This document shows positions 3,156-11,883 of a DNA stretch of 32,978 nucleotides, piece after piece. How positions within the stretch are numbered: the stretch's first letter is position 1; each line of letters begins with the position of its first letter. Made by a program: the position numbers and the translations under genes. The notes below the pieces were generated by a model. That model was not told where the DNA came from. It saw only the letters and a program-made list of their open reading frames with translations, and did not search any database. This stretch comes from a virus. The DNA lies in the IMG/VR virus record IMGVR_UViG_3300012920_000137, positions 1 to 32,978 of that record; one strand, 5' to 3'.

Positions 3156-3217
3156 GACTTACCTGCTACTGCTGCAATAGGAATTAGCATCAGCAATGCT
3201 GCTACTAAGAATCCCAT
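3152..3217 (-). CDS. 21-aa hydrophobic micro-protein
   Basis: The ATG at 3217 overlaps the TAA of the 35-aa hli gene (TAATG), and its TGA overlaps the ATG of the 46-aa gene (ATGA). The peptide begins MGFLVAALLMLIPIAAVAG and ends KS, a single hydrophobic helix. The two stop/start overlaps argue that it is translated. It resembles in size the one-helix low-molecular-weight photosystem and cytochrome subunits (PsbN, PetN class), but it matches none by sequence that I can name. An alternative is that it is only a translational relay between its neighbours. Confidence 0.5.
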   Translation of the reverse strand: MGFLVAALLMLIPIAAVAGKS

Positions 3218-3324
3218 TACCAAATACCTGGGATGAGTTGTCCTGTAGTTGCATAGGAACCGAATGCTGCAATGATACCGATCATCGCTGCCCAACCGTT
3301 GAGTTTTTCTGCTTCTGGGGTCAT
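3217..3324 (-). CDS. hli: Short high-light-inducible protein (35 aa)
   Basis: The ATG at 3324 is preceded by a good AGGAG Shine-Dalgarno. The 35-aa product starts MTPEAEKLNGWAAMIGIIAA and ends TTGQLIPGIW. It has the one-helix chlorophyll-binding signature ExxNGxxAMxG (Glu6, Asn9, Met14), and the Arg of the standard NGR is Trp here, a variant I recall in short Hli proteins. Hli proteins bind chlorophyll and carotenoid and protect photosystem II during D1 replacement. It follows the 76-aa Hli and is coupled to the 21-aa gene, so the three probably share one transcript. Confidence 0.88.
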   Translation of the reverse strand: MTPEAEKLNGWAAMIGIIAAFGSYATTGQLIPGIW

Positions 3325-3377
3325 AGTAAATCTCCTGTAAAAGTTAGTTGATAGAAGTGATGGGATAATCATCTTCT

Positions 3378-3608
3378 TCAGATGCCGAAAGCACCGAAGA
3401 AGAAGATGCTACCAGTGGTAGCGTAAGAAACAACTGCTGCAATAAAACCAAGCATCGCAGTGCGACCATTCAGTTTTTCAGCACGCTCTGCATAAGTCTC
3501 ATAACCATAGCGTTCTGCTGCGGTCTTGTCGATATACATACGAGGTTCGGTGGCGAACATGTTTGTTCTTCCACCATCTTCAGTTGTAATTGAACCTGAG
3601 CGAGTCAT
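3378..3608 (-). CDS. hli: High-light-inducible protein (76 aa)
   Basis: The ATG at 3608 gives a 76-aa Hli with an N-terminal polar extension (residues 1-40) and the chlorophyll-binding helix from about residue 44: AEKLNGRTAMLGFIAAVV. Glu44, Asn47 and Arg49 match the ExxNGR motif. The C-terminus is TTGSIFFFGAFGI, so it lacks the TGQxxPG ending found in its 35-aa neighbour. Phage hli genes are thought to protect the photosystem during infection. It has its own sigma-70-like promoter just upstream and is the first gene of the small membrane-protein train. Confidence 0.95.
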   Translation of the reverse strand: MTRSGSITTEDGGRTNMFATEPRMYIDKTAAERYGYETYAERAEKLNGRTAMLGFIAAVVSYATTGSIFFFGAFGI

Positions 3609-3672: not shown

Positions 3673-4182
3673 TCATAAGAATTTCTTAGCTTTCGTATAA
3701 TTGAAGTTAAAATTGAACCTACCCTTAGCGTTTGTAGTGGTTGTTGAGTTGTGTGGGATGGATCCATCAAACAGATACAGTCTATTCTCAATGCTTTCTA
3801 TAGTGGTATCCTCACCTATTCTGGTGTACCCATCGCAAGTATTGAGGCAATAGATTGCTGCCCCATGAGAGAATTTACAATCAGAATGTTGTTGATGCTC
3901 ATATATCTCTGATGTATGTGGATAAAAATTGATCTTGATACGTATCCACGTTGCGAAATCTGGTAGATGTTTTTTAAATAATGATTGAATCTCATCAAAA
4001 TGCTGACTCAATGGTCGATGATCTCCATAGATTAAATGGATACCATACCAATTGTCTAAGGAATCTTTCTCTTGACTAGTAGCAACAACATCATGAAGTT
4101 CAAAAGAAAGATTATCATTCCACATCACTGCTTCCTGAAGAAACCTTAGTTGATCTTCTGGTAATAAGTTATCGATAATCAT
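3673..4182 (-). CDS. 2-oxoglutarate/Fe(II)-dependent oxygenase-like protein (169 aa)
   Basis: The double-stranded beta-helix oxygenase signature is visible: an iron-binding H99-S-D101 (EHQQHSD), a distal His144 (SIPHNS), and an Arg155 (AKGRFNFNF) placed to bind the 2-oxoglutarate carboxylate. At 169 aa it is short, essentially just the catalytic core. Such proteins hydroxylate proteins, nucleobases or small molecules using 2-oxoglutarate and O2; the substrate here cannot be told. Its ATG overlaps the stop of the upstream oxygenase gene (TAATG), so the two are co-translated and may form a complex or act in sequence. Cyanophages carry many such genes. Confidence 0.83.
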   Translation of the reverse strand: MIIDNLLPEDQLRFLQEAVMWNDNLSFELHDVVATSQEKDSLDNWYGIHLIYGDHRPLSQHFDEIQSLFKKHLPDFATWIRIKINFYPHTSEIYEHQQHSDCKFSHGAAIYCLNTCDGYTRIGEDTTIESIENRLYLFDGSIPHNSTTTTNAKGRFNFNFNYTKAKKFL

Positions 4183-4856
4183 TATTGAATTGTTGCAAAA
4201 GCGACTTGAGTGTAACGTGTTTCTTTAGTGAATTGATCTGTACCTATACATGGACCATGAGGCATGTGTCCATTGAATAAGATAGCACGGTTTGGTTTAG
4301 CTTGTAAGGTAAAAAGAGGTGGAAAATTTTTCTTTGGTTCCATGAACTCATACTTATCTCTATTCTCATATTCATAGATATTGATTCCCTCTCCCTCCTC
4401 ATAGTGCTTGTTCATAAACACAACCATAGAAATCATATTAGAACTGTCTGAATATGATGCATCATTATGAATGTTGTACCAATTGTTTTGGTAATCAAAC
4501 CATTCATTCGTAAATTGAAACGCATTAAATAATATCCTATCCTTACATTCAACTCTCTCTACAGAAACCTCTGCTAACTGCGCGACGAGATGTTTGTAGT
4601 CTGTAGTAACAGGACATTGAGTCATCGTCATGCTGTATGCATAAGAAGAACGACCATCAAAGTGACTAATATTATCAGATTTATGTACAGGACAGAAAGG
4701 AAGTTTTAGCATTTCCTCATGAGCATGTTCAAACTTCTCATAAAAATTGTTCATCGTGTATATTTTTGTACATCCTAGATCTATTTCTTGTATTGAAATA
4801 GACTTATTGATGATAAAAGAATCTAAATCAATAATATTTTCAGAATTGATGAGCAT
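4182..4856 (-). CDS. 2-oxoglutarate/Fe(II)-dependent oxygenase-like protein (224 aa)
   Basis: The start is the ATG at 4856. The catalytic triad reads H130-N-D132 (NIHNDASYSD) and His200 (GHMPHGPC), with Arg214 (KETRYTQVAFAT) as the likely 2-oxoglutarate anchor. The segment MISMVVFMNKHYEEGEG between them matches the beta-strand and EGG-type turn common in prolyl-hydroxylase-like phage enzymes. The N-terminal ~100 residues are less conserved and may shape the substrate site. It is coupled to the 169-aa oxygenase downstream and faces away from the plus-strand island starting at 4902. Its promoter is not obvious in the ~45-base divergent gap. Confidence 0.83.
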   Translation of the reverse strand: MLINSENIIDLDSFIINKSISIQEIDLGCTKIYTMNNFYEKFEHAHEEMLKLPFCPVHKSDNISHFDGRSSYAYSMTMTQCPVTTDYKHLVAQLAEVSVERVECKDRILFNAFQFTNEWFDYQNNWYNIHNDASYSDSSNMISMVVFMNKHYEEGEGINIYEYENRDKYEFMEPKKNFPPLFTLQAKPNRAILFNGHMPHGPCIGTDQFTKETRYTQVAFATIQ

Positions 4857-4863
4857 GTGGATT

Positions 4864-4871
4864 GATAAATA
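4864..4871 (+). promoter_or_regulatory. T4-late-type promoter (GATAAATA) for secreted-protein island
   Basis: GATAAATA differs at one base from the T4-late consensus TATAAATA and lies about 31 bases before the ATG at 4902, matching the position expected for a short late leader. It is the only such site found on the plus strand ahead of the plus-strand genes. Confidence 0.5.
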
Positions 4872-4901
4872 GACTTAGAGATCTCAGATATGTATTCTAC
4901 C

Positions 4902-5396
4902 ATGAAAAAAGCACTTATGCTTTTTGTTATGTTTTCAATGGTGACTCCCGCTTTTGCAGGCGGGCTCGTAACTAAGCACGCATCCAGTGTACAACTAACT
5001 GTTGATGCTGCTAGATCTACTGCATCGAGAATCGGATCCTCGTTCAGTATCTCAGGTAGTGGAGTTGACACTACGGACGGTACGACTGCTAACACTATTT
5101 CTGCTGGTACTATCACCTCTGGTGTGTACAGTCCTGGTACTATTGCAGCAACTCAGGATACTCCTGGTAATGCATTTAGTTTTAGTCAGTCTTATACACA
5201 GGCTGATGCTGTTCCTCAATCAGCACCAACTGTAGGTGCTGTTCCTAACTTCTCCTCAATTACTTCTTACACAGCTGGAACTGCTGGTGATCTAGCAGGT
5301 ACTATCGGCACTACTGGTGCTATCAGCATCACGGCTGGTGGAGCTGGTACTACAGCAACAGGACAATTTGTTAGTGAGATTACTGTAATTGATTGA
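4902..5396 (+). CDS. Secreted protein A of plus-strand island
   Basis: The protein has a typical Sec signal peptide: MKKALMLFVMFSMVTPAFA with cleavage before GG (about residue 19). The start at 4902 is preferred because it puts the two lysines at the very N-terminus; an ATG at 4890 adds four residues. The mature part is small-residue rich (Gly, Thr, Ser, Ala), lacks cysteine and looks like an extended beta protein. It contains DTPGNAFSFSQSY and ends near FVSEITVID. Both features recur in the next gene, so the two are paralogues. It may be a virion or envelope protein, but the function is not recognised. Confidence 0.8.
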   Translation: MKKALMLFVMFSMVTPAFAGGLVTKHASSVQLTVDAARSTASRIGSSFSISGSGVDTTDGTTANTISAGTITSGVYSPGTIAATQDTPGNAFSFSQSYTQADAVPQSAPTVGAVPNFSSITSYTAGTAGDLAGTIGTTGAISITAGGAGTTATGQFVSEITVID

Positions 5397-5407
5397 GGAC
5401 GTTCGTA

Positions 5408-5854
5408 ATGACGATTTCTGGATCGACTTACTGGAGTATTGCGACAAGTGCGGTGGCAGTATTAGTTACTGCTGCCGCTGCCCAGGCGGTCCCCGTGGTC
5501 CCAAACTTCACCCAGGGCTCAATGACGAGCCACACAGAGACGACTCAGACTATAACTGAGACTATCAACTCCATGGACTATAGCACAGGGTATCAATACT
5601 CTGCAACTGGTTCAGGAGTAACAGCAAGTGGAAACTTATCTCCCACTACAGGCACAAATAATGTAACTATTGAAGGAGTAACTTCATCATGGACAGGTGT
5701 AACAGGCAAACCAACGTTCACACAAACAACACCAGGAGCAGCGTTCCAGTTCACAGAAACTTTATCTTCTCCAGGTTTACAAAATCATACGATCATCCAA
5801 AGGGTGACCGAGGTTACAAGCGTAACAGACACTACAAGTATTTTCTCCCAGTAA
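5408..5854 (+). CDS. Secreted protein B, paralogue of protein A
   Basis: The start chosen is the ATG at 5408, with GAGGA nine to ten bases upstream; an in-frame TTG at 5393 is less likely. A long hydrophobic signal follows (WSIATSAVAVLVTAAAAQA, cleavage before VPVV at about residue 27). The 148-aa product has GSGVTASG, TTPGAAFQFTETLSSPG and VTEVTSVTD, matching the layout of protein A. There are no cysteines and no recognised domain. The last 166 bases overlap the only canonical start-to-stop frame of the next gene. Export out of the cytoplasm is inferred. Confidence 0.78.
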   Translation: MTISGSTYWSIATSAVAVLVTAAAAQAVPVVPNFTQGSMTSHTETTQTITETINSMDYSTGYQYSATGSGVTASGNLSPTTGTNNVTIEGVTSSWTGVTGKPTFTQTTPGAAFQFTETLSSPGLQNHTIIQRVTEVTSVTDTTSIFSQ

Positions 5855-6600
5855 TTGCTGCTCTAGTAGCATCACCAGTTAATGCTGAAACTGTTGGCGG
5901 TGTTAGTGCAACTGCATCTCCAATCGCGAATAGCTCAGGCTCAGTGACCAACCAGGCAATTCAGGTTTTACAAGGTCCATATATTACTAATACTTATGGT
6001 GGTGGTATTCAGTGTCAAGGTCCCACTAGAAACTTCACACCTTATGTAACAGGAACTGCATCGGCATCAAAACCATACGAACCATATTATTGGGATCCAG
6101 TGTACGATGTCACCGATAACTTTGGTGCGTTCGATGATAATGGAAATGATATTGGGGATGGAATTTTAGACAACCCAGGAGATATTGTCTTCCATAAAAA
6201 AACTAGAACTGGACAGAAAGATAACTACAGTCTAGGTGTTGGTTTCTCTATGACGTGGAGTACACCAACAGATAAAAAACTACAAGACCTGTGTAAGAAA
6301 GCTGCTACAACACAGATCGCATTGCAGGAACAATTAACAGCAAATAAAAGATTAGATTTTGAGATCGCGAGACTAAAAAATTGTGGTGAATTATTGAAGG
6401 CAGGAATCCGCTTTACTCCAGGAACAAAGTATGCAAAAATCTGTGCAGATGTACAGGTATCTGGTGTGAACTTTATGGTTCCACACGTACACAAGATTCC
6501 TTCTACTTCTTCGTCTTCGCCTTCACAGCGCGAAGCTTTGCAATCGCTTCATTCCTCTGACGCTGCTCTGCTCGGCGCTCCCTTACAGATTCAACCTTAG
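5689..6600 (+). CDS. Secreted protein C; start uncertain
   Basis: The frame is open from an ATG at 5689, but its first ~50 residues duplicate the coding space of protein B in another frame and do not look protein-like. The true N-terminus probably lies near 5817-5850, where KRNRHYKYFLPVIAALVASP is followed by VNA-E, a clear signal peptide with cleavage before ETVGG. No ATG, GTG or TTG occurs there in frame, so a rare start codon or a frameshift from protein B must be considered. The mature region has GGVSATASPIANSSGSVTNQ, acidic Gly/Asp/Asn-rich segments (FGAFDDNGNDIGDG), then a helical stretch with three cysteines. The last ~30 codons run antisense to the neighbour gene. Function unknown. 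Confidence 0.75.
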   Translation: MDRCNRQTNVHTNNTRSSVPVHRNFIFSRFTKSYDHPKGDRGYKRNRHYKYFLPVIAALVASPVNAETVGGVSATASPIANSSGSVTNQAIQVLQGPYITNTYGGGIQCQGPTRNFTPYVTGTASASKPYEPYYWDPVYDVTDNFGAFDDNGNDIGDGILDNPGDIVFHKKTRTGQKDNYSLGVGFSMTWSTPTDKKLQDLCKKAATTQIALQEQLTANKRLDFEIARLKNCGELLKAGIRFTPGTKYAKICADVQVSGVNFMVPHVHKIPSTSSSSPSQREALQSLHSSDAALLGAPLQIQP

Positions 6601-7309
6601 GTTTCTTACCTCTGATCTGAGCAACCTTCTTCAATACTTTCTTCACTGTAGGTTTGATCACCTTCAGAAGTATATCTGCGAAAGGTTTAGCAAGCAGTGC
6701 AGAAGTAGTAGCAACAACAGCAATACCCCCAGTGGTGATTACGGTCCCCGTTGGGGGTAATCCATTTATGGCTTGTTCAATGATAGGTACATCACGCACC
6801 TCACGAATACATTGATTGCCGACTAATTTATATCCAGTAACTTCTTTCCTACCACTGTCGAAAATAAAACCAACAGGTTCTTCCGACAATTGTTTCTGGG
6901 TAGGACATTGAATCGTTGGAACAGTATCTTTTGTGTTTGGAGTTTTTGCTGCTGGCGTTTCTGTTTCTTTTCTTTCTGGTGGAGAACCAATGGGTGGTAC
7001 TGGTGCTTCATAATTAAATTCTAGATCATCTTTGTTGTAATCCATAGCATTAAACGATGGAACACCAGCATCACAGTATACTTTTACACCCTTAGGATCA
7101 TCATCACTAAGGATACCACTCTTCTCTTTGCTAGTGTTCTGTTCATGTGCCTCTACACAGCCAGGCATATCAACGATAGGCACACCAATATCCACCGTCA
7201 CAGGCAGTGATCTATACACTGGTGCTGGCGGTGGAATTCTTACTGTTATAGGGTTCACATCAATATCACCGATGTCGATGTTATTGATATCAATATTTGG
7301 AATACTCAT
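6503..7309 (-). CDS. Membrane-anchored protein with NIDI repeats and basic tail
   Basis: The start is the ATG at 7309 (MSIPNIDINNIDIGDIDVNP), which overlaps the stop of the upstream gene (TAATG). The 268-aa protein begins with an alternating Asn/Ile/Asp repeat that suggests a beta-solenoid strand, continues with a Pro-rich, acidic linker, has a hydrophobic stretch (GTVITTGGIAVVATTSALLA) that could span the membrane, and ends in a ~60-residue Lys/Arg-rich tail. It contains four cysteines. It is the last gene of the four-gene membrane operon and its 3' end overlaps secreted protein C by 98 bases tail to tail. No family recognised. Confidence 0.78.
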   Translation of the reverse strand: MSIPNIDINNIDIGDIDVNPITVRIPPPAPVYRSLPVTVDIGVPIVDMPGCVEAHEQNTSKEKSGILSDDDPKGVKVYCDAGVPSFNAMDYNKDDLEFNYEAPVPPIGSPPERKETETPAAKTPNTKDTVPTIQCPTQKQLSEEPVGFIFDSGRKEVTGYKLVGNQCIREVRDVPIIEQAINGLPPTGTVITTGGIAVVATTSALLAKPFADILLKVIKPTVKKVLKKVAQIRGKKPKVESVRERRAEQRQRNEAIAKLRAVKAKTKK

Positions 7310-7941
7310 TAGCAATCATTAAATACAGCACCAACTTGTGAACCCATTTCAGAACCTGCTTTCTGTCCTAGGAGTAGTGCCCAACCACCTGCTAACCAAC
7401 CCACGTAGGGGATGCTAGCAACGGCAGGAACGGCGACTCCAGCAGCGATAGCACTACCTGCCATTGCACCTTGAGATCGTGCTCCAGCGTCCGCCGCGAT
7501 ACACTCTGCGCTGACTCCTCCTACAGTCTTTCCCACTTCACCTATTTCACCTCCCCCGATGTTGCGGGTGCCGTCCATAGTGTATTGATCTCTACGATAC
7601 TCAGTTCGTTTCTCAGATCCTCCGCCAAACATTCCTCTCTTTTCTTTGTCTAGATCAAGAGATCTTTCTGACTCAAGAATAGTGGGATCGTTTGCTTTGT
7701 ATTCAATACTATAACCGTCTCTACCTGCATGAATTTTATAGGAAGAGTAATCACCACGAGGGATATTGATAGTTGGAACTGGTGGAACTGGTGGTTCTTC
7801 TGGTTGTCTGATTACATATCCAACTAAACCTATATGAGACACAGCGAACAATGCACCAACGGTTCCGATAAGGATCTTAAACGTTGATGGTTTTTTCTTC
7901 TCTGGTTCTATAAACTTAGTGAGTGTTTCTTCTTCATTCAT
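7309..7941 (-). CDS. Membrane protein with proline-rich linker (210 aa)
   Basis: A short cytoplasmic N-terminus (MNEEETLTKFIEPEKKKPST) is followed by a membrane span at about residues 20-44 and a proline-rich linker EEPPVPPVPTINIP. The middle is charged. The C-terminal ~55 residues are Gly/Ala-rich and hydrophobic (AGSAIAAGVAVPAVASIPYV), resembling glycine-zipper segments that insert in membranes. Its ATG overlaps the stop of the 76-aa gene (ATGA) and its stop overlaps the next start (TAATG), so the four genes are translationally chained. It could belong to an envelope-spanning complex or be a virion protein; there is no recognised homologue. Confidence 0.78.
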   Translation of the reverse strand: MNEEETLTKFIEPEKKKPSTFKILIGTVGALFAVSHIGLVGYVIRQPEEPPVPPVPTINIPRGDYSSYKIHAGRDGYSIEYKANDPTILESERSLDLDKEKRGMFGGGSEKRTEYRRDQYTMDGTRNIGGGEIGEVGKTVGGVSAECIAADAGARSQGAMAGSAIAAGVAVPAVASIPYVGWLAGGWALLLGQKAGSEMGSQVGAVFNDC

Positions 7942-8168
7942 GGTAACGATGGGAGTGCGGGACCTGTAACTTTAGGTAACTCAGGTACTGCAGCATCAAC
8001 CATACCAGGGAGAGCACCAGCAATTGCTTCTGCTGCTGCTTTAGCTACCTTTTCTTTTGCATTTTCAATCAGTGCATCTTTTTGGATGTAGACATAAACT
8101 CCACCACCAATGATGCTAGCAGTTCCTACGAATGATAGGACCGCTAATACATTAATTAACTTTTGCAT
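7938..8168 (-). CDS. Small single-span membrane protein (76 aa)
   Basis: The ATG at 8168 is chosen because a strong AGGAGG Shine-Dalgarno precedes it; upstream in-frame codons lie inside the previous gene. The product starts MQKLINVLAVLSFVGTASII, a single membrane helix, followed by an amphipathic Ala/Lys helix (ENAKEKVAKAAAEAIAGALP) and a proline-rich end. It overlaps the previous gene by 17 bases and the next by 4 bases. Function is not recognised. Confidence 0.8.
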   Translation of the reverse strand: MQKLINVLAVLSFVGTASIIGGGVYVYIQKDALIENAKEKVAKAAAEAIAGALPGMVDAAVPELPKVTGPALPSLP

Positions 8169-8454
8169 TTGTTTCCTCCTGTTTTCCAATTGTAGGTGCT
8201 TTTTTAGGAGCACTACCATTTTTAGCAGGACTCAATCCGAACGCAGCTAACGAGCCGCTGAAGACGGAAGCTATAAAAGTTGGATCAAAATCTAGAATCT
8301 TTTGACCGTTGGGAAGTCTAACGTATGAGAACGTGAGTAGAGAGGCAGACCATATAAGTACAACGACTTTCACTAAATTACCAAGAACTTCACTTTTATC
8401 TTCATCATCCTGCTTCTCTTGTACTTCGATCTCCGATGGTTTAGTTTCAGACAT
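8152..8454 (-). CDS. Two-span membrane protein, holin-like in shape (100 aa)
   Basis: The ATG at 8454 has GGAGG seven to eight bases upstream and lies about 50 bases downstream of a perfect late promoter. The protein has a highly charged N-terminus (MSETKPSEIEVQEKQDDEDK), a first hydrophobic segment at about 27-43 and a second at about 60-75 (FIASVFSGSLAAFGLSPAKN), then a charged C-terminus. Small size, two spans, charged ends and late expression fit a holin or related lysis protein, but this is only topology, not homology. It is the first gene of a four-gene coupled operon. Confidence 0.78.
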   Translation of the reverse strand: MSETKPSEIEVQEKQDDEDKSEVLGNLVKVVVLIWSASLLTFSYVRLPNGQKILDFDPTFIASVFSGSLAAFGLSPAKNGSAPKKAPTIGKQEETNAKVN

Positions 8455-8509
8455 TTTTTTCCTCCACGGTAAACATCGCATGGATCATATGTATAGAGTA
8501 AGGCAACTT

Positions 8510-8517: not shown

Positions 8518-11500
8518 CTATCTCTCTCCTGGTCTGTACGCATTACCTCTGGGGAACAATTGTCCAACCCTAGGTCTCTTGTCTTTCAAGAAGTCTCTAC
8601 TTGTGGTTAGAGGTGTTGTATCTTGCAGTGCTACATTATTTGGGAAGTCAAAATGATCTACTATAGCAACAGCACCTGATGTTGTATCTGCAGGTACAGT
8701 AATTTCATCAACCTCTTCAAAGAATCTAGGATATAGTTGACCATAATCTACAAATGCAGGAGGTCTACCAGGAGATACAAACTTAATTGGTTGATAGATG
8801 AGCGTCATATTTGGGAACCTTGGCCAATTTCTTGGATCATTCCATGTCTTAGTAGAGCTAGTATTTCTATTAAAATGTGTAGTTGGTACAGTCATATCAA
8901 TAGCAGTAGTAGCTCTCTCAGGAACCCAGTTAACAATAGGAGGTGGAGTAACATCTGTCCAATTAGATGTGTGTTGATTACCTCGTGTAAGATGTACATT
9001 CTGTGTTGTTGCTAATGCGGAAGAGAATGCAAACGATATGTTTCCATGTGCTTTTGTTCCGTTCGACATACTAGCATCATCAGTATGCTGATTACCTCTA
9101 GCAAAAGCAAGAGTCCAGTTAGCATCAATAGCAGGGTTGACTTTCCAATACTTATCAAGATCACTACCAGCGTAGCTACCAAATTCCATCTCAGACATAA
9201 TTGGTTGTCCAAATAGAACTTGATCTATACCACCAGTAAATGTTCTGATGTTATTAACACCACTACCAGTGAGAGTAAAACTATAGGTTTGTGCATTACC
9301 AGTGGAGGTATCTGTTACTATTACAGTAAAAGATGTATCACCAAAGTAACTACTTGTAGAAGATGATCCTAGGTAACCTGTATCTGTATTAAAAACTAAG
9401 TTAGTACCAATCAAACTATCACCAGTGATTGTCCATGGTCCTACGTCGAGTGTTTCTCCACCACTGGTAGTGGTTGCACTTGAATACCCTAGGTTAATAC
9501 TAACATTAGAGTTATGTGCGATAGGACTCTGACTGATTGTTCCTTGTCCCTGTGCCCATACATATGTTTTTTCAACAAAAGGAAAGATAGCGCCCCTCAA
9601 TCTAGAGGGAGTAAACGTACTAGATGCAGGGTCAAAATATCCAGCGTCAACAGGAAGACCAGTACCGACAGGTGTACCAGTAGGAGGTGTTGCAGTTTCT
9701 TGTGCATCAGTTCTGGTTTCTAAGTTCACACTTCCAAAATGAGGACCGTCAGTCTCTTGGTGTGTACCACTAATGATACCTAAAGAGAATGGTCCAGCAC
9801 CACCGACATTGATATTGGTTGATGTAAATATATTACCACTACCAAGATCGATTGTTACTGTATTTTGTACAGCATCTTCACCAACAATACCATACCAATT
9901 TTTCTCGAATACAGATGTTATATTGATGTTACCTACTAGTGTTGGTACAGGAACTGGTGTTCTCAACTGAGCTTTTTTACCAACGTTACCTAAAAAGTGA
10001 GACGCATCTACTGGTTGAAACTTAACTACAAGATGAGAAGACCCACTAGTAGTGCTGAATGGATCAGCAGAGATTTCTCTCTCATCCATTTCATCAATAG
10101 GATAGTTAGAACTCCTTCCACTATTTGTTCTATGTCCTGGGTTAGAAGTATTGATCCAGTTTTTCGATAGCGTTGGTACACCAGAGAAACTTTGATTGTA
10201 ATTATGATATTCAGCCCAACATGCTAAGATACCAGTAACGATAGGTGCAGAGAAAGAAGTACCTCCAATATTTTGATACCATGAACCCCAAGTATCTAAG
10301 TAATTAGTTGTAGTTGTCCAATCATAAGTAGGACACTCAACTCTAACACCAGGAGCAACAATGTCTACAGAATTTCCATAGTTAGAAAAGTCAGCATAGG
10401 TATCGTTGTACTCGGTAGCACCAACACTAATTTTCGGTTGATTAAAGTCAACGTTATTGAATCTTAAATCTTGTGGTCCTGCTGTTCTAGCTCCTGCAGC
10501 AAACTTTGCTTGCATAGGACCAAGGAAAGTATCTTGTGCTGAATCAAATCCGTTACCAGCAGAACGAACAATAATAATATTTTCTGATCTACAAACAATA
10601 CTTTCGATCTCATCCATTGCTTCCAGATCATTTGCAGGAAAGTCTGTTCCTACATCATTGAGTTCAATAACAGGTGTACCTCCAGAAGGAGTGCCTGCTC
10701 CAAAAGAAGCGTTGATAATTGCTCGTCTGTTATCACCTTTGTAGTATGAATGTGTACTATCGTTGTGATCAATAACTGCTTGGTATGCTCCAAGGATAGC
10801 AGAGAATGTACCACTTACATTAGAATTAAATGCTTTCAGGGAATATATTCGTGCTCTCTTCGCAACTCCATATCTATATCCCGAAGCCATAATTGCACAC
10901 TCAGTACCATGACCCTCATCATCTTCATTGTTAGTACCATAAGCACCAGCATAATGTGGTAACTGATAGACTCTATAGTCTCCCTGCTCAGATGTACCAT
11001 CTAAATTAGTTCTATTATCTGGATGAAATAATTCTGGATGGAGTGCTGCACCAGCACCAGTAGGTCTACTAGCACCCCTAACTCCACTATCAATGATATA
11101 GATATCAACATTATTCCCAGTGTGAGTGTAGCTGAACTGAGAGTTCATTGCTGATCTTTCTCTCTTGGAAATTCTATCCAAGTGCCATGTATCATACGAC
11201 ATACAAATAGCACCATACCTCTGTGGAGATATAGTGTTCCTACCCATACCAGGATGAGCAGTACAATAGAAGAACAATCTAGATGCTGTTGATGTACCAA
11301 AAGTTACGGTGATACCAGACCCAGCAGAACCAGGAGAATTTCCTAAAACAGTAACACCTTGAGTATATTCTACGCCTCCATTATGAGTACCATCCTGCAT
11401 CTCAGATAACCTAAAAGGATGTCCAGCGTTAGTAGGATCTCCCTGATCAAATGTGAGTGTAGTTCCTGCAGGTATACCTGCATAGTTGGTAGGGATAAAC

Positions 11501-11883
11501 CAACCACCAGTTCCACTGTTAGAGAACTCGTATACGTTTGCTCCGTTTAGTTGATTAACACGAACATATACAGTACCAGTACCACTACCAGCAGCAAACT
11601 TAGTGTTATCAATTGCACTCAGGTCAGCACTATCCAACTGGACAGACTCATTAGTCCTATCTACAGGATCTAATTTATAAGATCTATCCCAGAAACATTT
11701 ATGTCCACACTGATTAACATCCCACTTTACTTGGTCAATGTTTTCATCAGGAATATCAAAAGTTAATGTACGAAAGCTTCTATAACTTTCATGGAACTGA
11801 GCGTATGGTAGTCTTGCTTCAATAGATGAACGGATGTCCTCTAGTGGAGATCTACCACACGCTTTTACTACTAACCTTTTCAT
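8518..11883 (-). CDS. Subtilisin-like serine protease with N-terminal cupredoxin-like domain (1121 aa)
   Basis: Residues 1-90 may be a propeptide. Residues ~103-220 resemble a blue-copper cupredoxin, with His155 (AGHPFRL), Cys207, His210 and Met213 in FYCTAHPGMG as likely ligands. The peptidase S8 domain follows at ~245-575, with Asp265 (YIIDSGV), His325 (DEGHGTE), oxyanion Asn444 (SAGNG) and Ser543 (GGTSFSAP). The remaining ~550 residues are beta-rich, including an Ig/cadherin-like stretch around residues 800-880 (SFTVIVTDTSTGNAQTYSFT). No signal peptide is seen, so it is probably carried on the virion rather than secreted. It lies at the distal end of the fibre gene cluster and abuts the 683-aa structural gene. 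It could digest host surface proteins or mature fibre proteins. Confidence 0.9.
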   Translation of the reverse strand: MKRLVVKACGRSPLEDIRSSIEARLPYAQFHESYRSFRTLTFDIPDENIDQVKWDVNQCGHKCFWDRSYKLDPVDRTNESVQLDSADLSAIDNTKFAAGSGTGTVYVRVNQLNGANVYEFSNSGTGGWFIPTNYAGIPAGTTLTFDQGDPTNAGHPFRLSEMQDGTHNGGVEYTQGVTVLGNSPGSAGSGITVTFGTSTASRLFFYCTAHPGMGRNTISPQRYGAICMSYDTWHLDRISKRERSAMNSQFSYTHTGNNVDIYIIDSGVRGASRPTGAGAALHPELFHPDNRTNLDGTSEQGDYRVYQLPHYAGAYGTNNEDDEGHGTECAIMASGYRYGVAKRARIYSLKAFNSNVSGTFSAILGAYQAVIDHNDSTHSYYKGDNRRAIINASFGAGTPSGGTPVIELNDVGTDFPANDLEAMDEIESIVCRSENIIIVRSAGNGFDSAQDTFLGPMQAKFAAGARTAGPQDLRFNNVDFNQPKISVGATEYNDTYADFSNYGNSVDIVAPGVRVECPTYDWTTTTNYLDTWGSWYQNIGGTSFSAPIVTGILACWAEYHNYNQSFSGVPTLSKNWINTSNPGHRTNSGRSSNYPIDEMDEREISADPFSTTSGSSHLVVKFQPVDASHFLGNVGKKAQLRTPVPVPTLVGNINITSVFEKNWYGIVGEDAVQNTVTIDLGSGNIFTSTNINVGGAGPFSLGIISGTHQETDGPHFGSVNLETRTDAQETATPPTGTPVGTGLPVDAGYFDPASSTFTPSRLRGAIFPFVEKTYVWAQGQGTISQSPIAHNSNVSINLGYSSATTTSGGETLDVGPWTITGDSLIGTNLVFNTDTGYLGSSSTSSYFGDTSFTVIVTDTSTGNAQTYSFTLTGSGVNNIRTFTGGIDQVLFGQPIMSEMEFGSYAGSDLDKYWKVNPAIDANWTLAFARGNQHTDDASMSNGTKAHGNISFAFSSALATTQNVHLTRGNQHTSNWTDVTPPPIVNWVPERATTAIDMTVPTTHFNRNTSSTKTWNDPRNWPRFPNMTLIYQPIKFVSPGRPPAFVDYGQLYPRFFEEVDEITVPADTTSGAVAIVDHFDFPNNVALQDTTPLTTSRDFLKDKRPRVGQLFPRGNAYRPGER
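11224..11577 (-). other. Cupredoxin-like domain within the subtilase protein
   Basis: This is the coding region of residues ~103-220. A beta-rich domain starts at VYVRVNQLNGANVYEF and ends at the copper motif C-x2-HP-x-M (Cys207, His210, Met213), with the upstream His155 spaced as in plastocyanin-type sites. Copper binding is inferred from the four ligands only. Confidence 0.6.

Follow-up and report, generated by a model that had tools for sequence, protein, structure and literature searches.

In the two-component spanins of lambda (Rz/Rz1), P2 and T4 (PseT.3/PseT.2), two exported proteins are encoded by out-of-frame overlapping genes; one is the o-spanin, a lipoprotein, and the other is the i-spanin, with an N-terminal transmembrane (TM) segment and a periplasmic coiled coil. 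In a spanin survey (PMC6139136), 91 of the 677 phages are listed without spanins, and 20 of these infect Prochlorococcus or Synechococcus. The no-spanin list includes P-SSP7, Syn9, Syn33, S-ShM2, S-SSM7 and P-SSM7, and likewise Syn5 and P60. The survey authors suggested that disruption of the outer membrane is perhaps unnecessary in these phages.

The locus described here (genes A, B and C, with the facing gene D) shares with two-component spanins an out-of-frame overlap of genes for two exported-type proteins, conserved cysteines and membrane-protein neighbors. Unlike spanins, it contains neither an o-spanin lipoprotein nor a coiled-coil i-spanin with an N-terminal TM segment, and the stretch that overlaps encodes the C-terminus of B together with the signal region of C. 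Within PMC literature (titles and abstract openings), no paper was found on the function of A, B, C or DUF6322 or on cyanophage spanins, no description of the B/C overlap, the shared module or its cellular relatives, and no expression, localization or knockout data on the module.

Layout of the locus and its protein families

The window, that is, the whole stretch of viral DNA analysed (32,978 bases, the full source record), contains a photosynthetic reaction-center gene and strongly resembles Synechococcus T4-like phages in sequence. For its region of 4.5-7.3 kb, 402 phage records match, the best being S-CAM1 (78%). Genes A, B and C lie on the plus strand, flanked by minus-strand genes (4182-4856 and 6503-7315), and the list of open reading frames (ORFs) confirms the three-gene plus-strand island, in a window otherwise read from the minus strand, that the first-pass annotation had described (table 1).

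Table 1. Features of the A-B-C locus and of its downstream neighbors (positions in the window)
Feature	Position	Strand	Basis or remark
T4-type late promoter motif GATAAATA, 38 nt 5′ of the likely start of A	4864..4871	+	sequence
Gene A, alternative start	4890	+	sequence
Gene A, exported-type protein, phrog_564, paralogue of B	4902..5396	+	sequence, profile search
Gene A, predicted signal peptide, ..TPAFA/GG	4902-4958	+	ad hoc export rule
Gene B, exported-type protein, DUF6322/phrog_650, no cysteine	5408..5854	+	sequence, profile search
Gene B, predicted signal peptide, ending in ..AAAAQA	mature from about 5489	+	ad hoc export rule
AAGGAG, Shine-Dalgarno-like site for C within B, 10 nt before ATG 5689	5673..5678	+	
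Gene C, gp165-like, phrog_848	5689..6600	+	sequence, profile search
B/C out-of-frame overlap, 163 nt before the stop codon of B (166 bp including the stop)	5689..5854	+	
C/D antisense overlap of 3′ ends, 98 bp	6503-6600		
Gene D (phrog_570), convergent with C; N-terminal arm rich in Pro, a single TM, basic C-terminal tail	6503..7315	-	
210-aa protein (phrog_605), N-terminal TM, Gly-rich hydrophobic C-terminal segment	7309..7941	-	frequent myovirus neighbor
93-aa one-TM protein (phrog_568)	7938..8219	-	frequent myovirus neighbor
2-TM protein DUF6450 (PF20048), holin-like in topology only	8152..8481	-	

By tblastn, A was matched in 353 phage records, B was matched in 402 and C in 435, and all of these records bear names as cyanophage, marine or uncultured. 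With hundreds of homologous phage records, chance ORFs are ruled out. The respective families, phrog_564, phrog_650 (= Pfam DUF6322) and phrog_848, are catalogued without a function; podovirus B also matches phrog_650, and the DUF6322 entry, which includes the B of the window, gives neither a function nor an overlap with C. The match of C to phrog_848 is strong (E 3.3e-144), and gp165 of podoviruses belongs to the same family. Searches of A, B and C against NCBIfam gave no informative match, those of C and D against Pfam gave no family, and the best E values of the PDB sequence searches were 0.21 and 0.52.

The ATG at 4902 is the likely start of A, because most alignments to relatives begin at its fifth residue. 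Upstream of A, TAAATA is present in 53 of 62 distinct 75-bp regions, a count resting on a heuristic choice of the start codon. For comparison, other ORFs of at least 100 aa have it upstream in 140 of 661 regions, and random 75-mers contain it in 228 of 8000 cases. The longer form NATAAATA, published as the late promoter of S-PM2 (PMC2984593), is found in 27 of the 62 regions. The late-type promoter proposed earlier for this island is supported by these counts.

Export signals were scored with an ad hoc rule, that is, a charged n-region and a hydrophobic core followed by small residues. Signal-like N-termini were found in 65/78 A, 79/81 myovirus B, 74/78 podovirus B and 155/155 C sequences, pass rates of a permissive rule that lacks a control set and in which the start was freely chosen for A and B. 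Thus, the signal peptides suggested from the single sequence are predicted across all three families, and if these signals are real, the proteins have a role in the envelope. The pre-protein of C starts with about 45 mostly basic residues, followed by a hydrophobic core and an AxA-type site (mature from about 5887), then by a beta-strand region and a long helix in a low-confidence model. No cysteine exists in A or B of the window. In C of the window cysteines are at positions 4, 109, 202, 232 and 252, none directly after the signal; four cysteines are invariant across the C alignment, which would fit an oxidizing compartment.

A and B are paralogues, as judged from motifs and profiles. In the window, A contains SGSGV, TPGNAFSF and a VSEITVID end, and B contains TGSGV, TPGAAFQF and, close to its C-terminal end, VTEVTSVTD; these are the GSGV, TPGxAFxF and VxExTxxD motifs from which a duplication had been proposed. 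Cleaned profiles of A and B align with a probability of 94.6-96.0 (E=7e-8 to 3.8e-9), against less than 0.3 for all controls (five column-shuffled and one reversed), and A also matches the phrog_650 family of B (E=2.5e-5). Against DUF6322 (PF19847, curated cut-off 30.6 bits), B scores 135.7 bits (E 8.8e-40) and A 14.1 bits, below the cut-off. Some records call phage A "OMP1". In the comparison with PF24653 (Phage_OMP, a cyanophage OMP-like beta barrel), A of the window is absent from the matches at E<=1, and a chromosomal A (see below) reaches E 0.019 and 15.6 bits, below the cut-off of 27.

The first-pass description of the proteins as beta-rich fits the AlphaFold model of B, which has a mean pLDDT of 80 but a pTM of 0.38. 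The Foldseek search of this model against PDB gave nothing at E<=0.001, the best match being a phage tail protein (3.9e-3), and a BFVD search gave six rows at E<=0.001, some of them phage proteins of this group and several nameless. The model of C (mean pLDDT 63) is reliable just for helix 137-178 of the modelled fragment, and Foldseek and VIA gave no useful match. The fold searches of B and C show no significant known fold, which leaves room for unlisted ones. Neither by sequence nor by structure did any of the searches point to a known function.

A and B might oligomerize into a beta-barrel pore in the outer membrane, a mechanism that could also serve lysis. The first and last strands of the B model, of 23 and 24 residues, and a Foldseek list rich in beta-pore stems (together with phage collar proteins) would agree with such a pore. 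Against it, no match reached E<=0.001, pTM is low and VIA Z is at most 3.4, so that the resemblance is a hint only; the same limits (Foldseek E>0.001, VIA Z<=3.4) apply to the pore type of aerolysin, lysenin and anthrax PA. On balance, the pore is considered unlikely.

The DUF6450 protein resembles class II holins in being a small protein with two TM segments; it scores 99.1 bits in the window, 111.1 in P-SSP7 and 107.1 in 9515-10a (curated cut-off 25), and hydropathy finds the two segments in 87/87 and 79/79 sequences of the two phage groups. The N-terminal arm of D has 13-21% Pro, and in 65/68 and 58/58 sequences of the two groups a charge-based rule, i.e., a more positive C-terminal side, predicts a C-terminus facing inwards. 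Myovirus and podovirus D resemble each other weakly (hhalign probability 79-85), with an architecture common to both. The overlap of the 3′ ends of C and D is likewise annotated in Syn9 and S-CAM1. Adjoining these membrane-protein genes, 8518-11883 (minus strand) encodes a protein of 1121 aa, of which residues 256-567 form a subtilase domain (Peptidase S8; Pfam E 2.8e-29). On the other side of the island, at 3217-3608 (minus strand), two short ORFs resemble high-light-inducible proteins by eye, and one of them weakly matches chlorophyll a-b binding protein (E 0.0017, below the cut-off).

The out-of-frame overlap of B and C

The first-pass annotation treated the third protein as the product of a separate gene, but C starts inside B, out of frame. 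After removal of window copies and repeats, 79 distinct contexts were compared, namely the window, S-CAM1, Syn9 and 76 IMG/VR loci; in 78 of them the ATG of C is located exactly 163 nt before the stop of B, the exception being L037. In these 78, the frame of C has no stop for at least 59 codons ahead of the stop of B, and the third frame stops within 9-24. Synonymous resampling of B, based on 68 sequences with the same spacing, preserved the ATG in 407 of 1000 replicates and an open C frame in 88. At fourfold sites of conserved amino acids, the mean entropy is 1.09 in the overlap and 1.35 upstream (Mann-Whitney p=0.019, indicative only, as the sequences are related). Several sites in the GGAG area just 5′ of the ATG are nearly invariant. 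As far as these comparisons of sequences go, the out-of-frame pair is maintained by selection.

In podoviruses the pair has other spacings. Nearly all IMG/VR podovirus-type rows have the start 205 nt before the stop of B, with the exceptions of L117 (only at 361), L109 (166, with a shorter B) and the fragment L169; in P-SSP7, P-GSP1, S-RIP2 and S-TIP37, starts are found 109-190 nt before this stop. In 9515-10a the B homologue is nested out of frame in gp165. Existing annotations treat the pair differently: C is annotated as overlapping B in Syn9 ("gp165") and from a later start in P-SSP7. B is unannotated in 9515-10a and also in S-CAM1, where a minus-strand ORF has been called across its start instead.

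Alternatively, C could be produced by a frameshift from B, or from an unusual codon further downstream, with no separate internal start. In the frame of C, some 50 residues precede the hydrophobic core, an arrangement indeed atypical for a signal peptide. This explanation is nevertheless very improbable, given the fixed ATG of the 78 contexts and the GGAG-type site in most rows. The start at a matching place in podoviruses of the 9515-10a type also argues against it, as do the myovirus S-H38, where the ATG is just 61 nt before the stop of B, and chromosomal copies, in which the open frame of C begins 3′ of this stop. By eye, no slippery heptamer for a shift from B to C was seen.

Distribution in phages and cyanobacteria

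The gene set is not specific to cyanomyoviruses: T7-like cyanophages also have B and C, and some cyanobacterial chromosomes have A-B-C. In 80 myovirus loci, contig ends included, B and C were found in all 80, A in 77, D on the opposite strand in 69 and DUF6450 in 56. Among 80 podovirus loci, 24 were too close to a contig end and one was without a B hit; the remaining 55 evaluable loci all have the order D - DUF6450 - B - C. The synteny therefore spans two phage families.

In the named podoviruses the block has tail-fibre-type genes on one side and the small terminase on the other, for instance in 9515-10a, where the C homologue is gp165. T7 keeps its holin (17.5) and its spanins (18.5/18.7) in the corresponding region. 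The position behind tail-fibre-type genes and the late-type promoter would also suit proteins of the virion or tail, such as a fibre accessory or an appendage, with a signal-like N-terminus that is misleading or serves membrane-associated assembly. This is rather improbable in view of the signal-like N-termini throughout the families and the four invariant cysteines of C.

Syn5 has no match to A, B, C, D or DUF6450, and hence its horn proteins are ruled out as the same thing. Its gap from tail fibre to small terminase holds gp47 and gp48. The former (L087:36392-36652, plus strand) has 86 aa, with a hydrophobic N-terminus and a charged, helical-looking remainder; it matched no named function apart from a weak phrog_462 "lipoprotein" (E 0.0016), and is a possible alternative lysis protein.

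Contigs with cyanophage-type A/B/C or B/C are also found in bacterial and archaeal bins, e.g., of Nonlabens, Lewinella, Euryarchaeota and Formosa (L172-L180, L185-L189, L204, L205). The titles of such records should therefore not be read as hosts. Similarly, a scan with the C profile, in which each species was represented by one genome, gave 18 loci, many of them on phage contigs that had been binned with bacteria.

Chromosomal A-B-C was found in three freshwater Synechococcaceae (L181-L183, found a second time as L206, L202 and L203). Pfam confirms citrate synthase in L202 and L206, and ndhE in L202; closer neighbors are a small exported-type protein and a bestrophin-like protein (L202, below the cut-off). 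L202 and L206 have a D-like gene facing C, and the contig of L203 ends there. In all three, the frame of C opens only after the stop of B, and thus the overlap is absent from these chromosomes.

With profiles to which these chromosomal copies had been added, more distant C-like proteins of the exported type were detected in at least 11 of the 386 cyanobacterial genomes sampled, a count that includes the genomes of the query itself; some of the genes are on contigs of 2.6-7.0 Mb. As limited candidates were scored per genome, the counts of the genome searches (11/386, 4/386, 4/300, 5/42 and 3/149) are lower bounds, and two of the 4/300 are podovirus contigs. These chromosomal proteins (L218-L222, L234-L240) have no family name and show a signal-like N-terminus where complete. 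Like phage C they have four aligned cysteines and a comparable order of motifs, and all nine aligned C-type proteins have C48, C97, C127 and C147 (L202 numbering); unlike it they have other neighbors, and the identity is about 20-28%.

Small exported-type proteins adjoin several of the distant C-like genes, and no lysis genes were recognized beside chromosomal C-like genes. Some neighbors look A-like or B-like by eye only; the B HMMs found no match among them and the A HMM one (L237, E 0.0062). In L234-L236, L220 and L218, the C-like genes are placed in clusters of small, Ser/Thr-rich proteins of the exported type, many of which end in F-x3-F-type motifs; those scanned have no Pfam family.

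In the 47-row tree of C, a supported branch (100/98) sets the distant cellular proteins apart. The three near cellular copies are located inside the phage side, beside S-H38 (95/93), with a warning for long branches, and may therefore be captured phage genes. The simplest reading, tentative as to direction, would be an old cyanobacterial family with a phage lineage that was passed between phages of the T4-like and T7-like groups, and from which a chromosome recaptured genes once.

These relatives bear on a quite possible explanation, though not the first-ranked one, that is, remodelling of the envelope without lysis. Late in infection, exported homologues of cyanobacterial proteins would cover the host surface or change it, and for instance block superinfection or keep the progeny from binding debris. 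The cellular branch of C-like proteins, the small exported-type proteins beside several of them and the chromosomal A-B-C, with a D-like gene facing C in two of the three, all favor it, and the cellular relatives fit remodelling nearly as well as lysis. On the other hand, the closest cellular copies may be of phage origin, and late-type expression and the linkage to two podovirus membrane proteins fit lysis at least equally.

A possible role in lysis

As possible functions, the first-pass annotation had offered modification of the host envelope, release at lysis or an extracellular structure. Lysis is ranked first here on account of four observations: neighbors that are membrane proteins, a position like that in T7, a late-type promoter and the lack of spanins in the survey. 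Tentatively, and at somewhat less than even confidence, A, B and C are regarded as a late, Sec-exported envelope module, whose likeliest job would be the disruption of the outer membrane at lysis. The six phages from P-SSP7 to P-SSM7 named above from the no-spanin list all carry matches to B and/or C. Since Syn5, listed in the same survey, lacks the whole set, the module cannot be the general answer of cyanophages. The cellular branch of C-like proteins and the lack of a lipobox likewise count against a role in lysis.

A late RNA from the GATAAATA promoter would carry A, B and C, and C would be translated from the ATG inside B with its own Shine-Dalgarno-like site; this arrangement probably fixes the ratio of B to C. 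The three proteins would lose their signal peptides and perhaps co-assemble, and their site of action would be the periplasm or the outer membrane. D would be anchored in the inner membrane, with its Pro-rich arm probably periplasmic, and could connect the exported proteins to this membrane. The module would thereby breach or destabilize the cyanobacterial outer membrane at lysis, as spanins do elsewhere.

An overlapping gene pair, as in two-component spanins, is present in B/C. The lipobox cysteine of an o-spanin is absent, as A and B of the window have no cysteine and C has none after its signal. The N-terminal TM and periplasmic coiled coil of an i-spanin are matched neither by D, with its one TM near the C-terminus, nor by C, with its short hydrophobic core, AxA-type site, beta region and one long helix (low-confidence model). 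With these two defining features lacking, the module is not a spanin by definition. It is doubtful, but conceivable, that many T4-like and T7-like marine cyanophages possess a new type of lysis system, in which a Pro-rich inner-membrane protein and exported, non-lipidated proteins from out-of-frame overlapping genes jointly open the outer membrane.

If true, such a system would take the place of the spanins that the survey found missing from these phages. An engineering method for such phages has been published (PMC8776855), and the question of the outer membrane becomes testable by deleting three or four named genes. If the role is not lysis, the locus would still represent an exported family without known function, present in two phage families and in cyanobacterial chromosomes.
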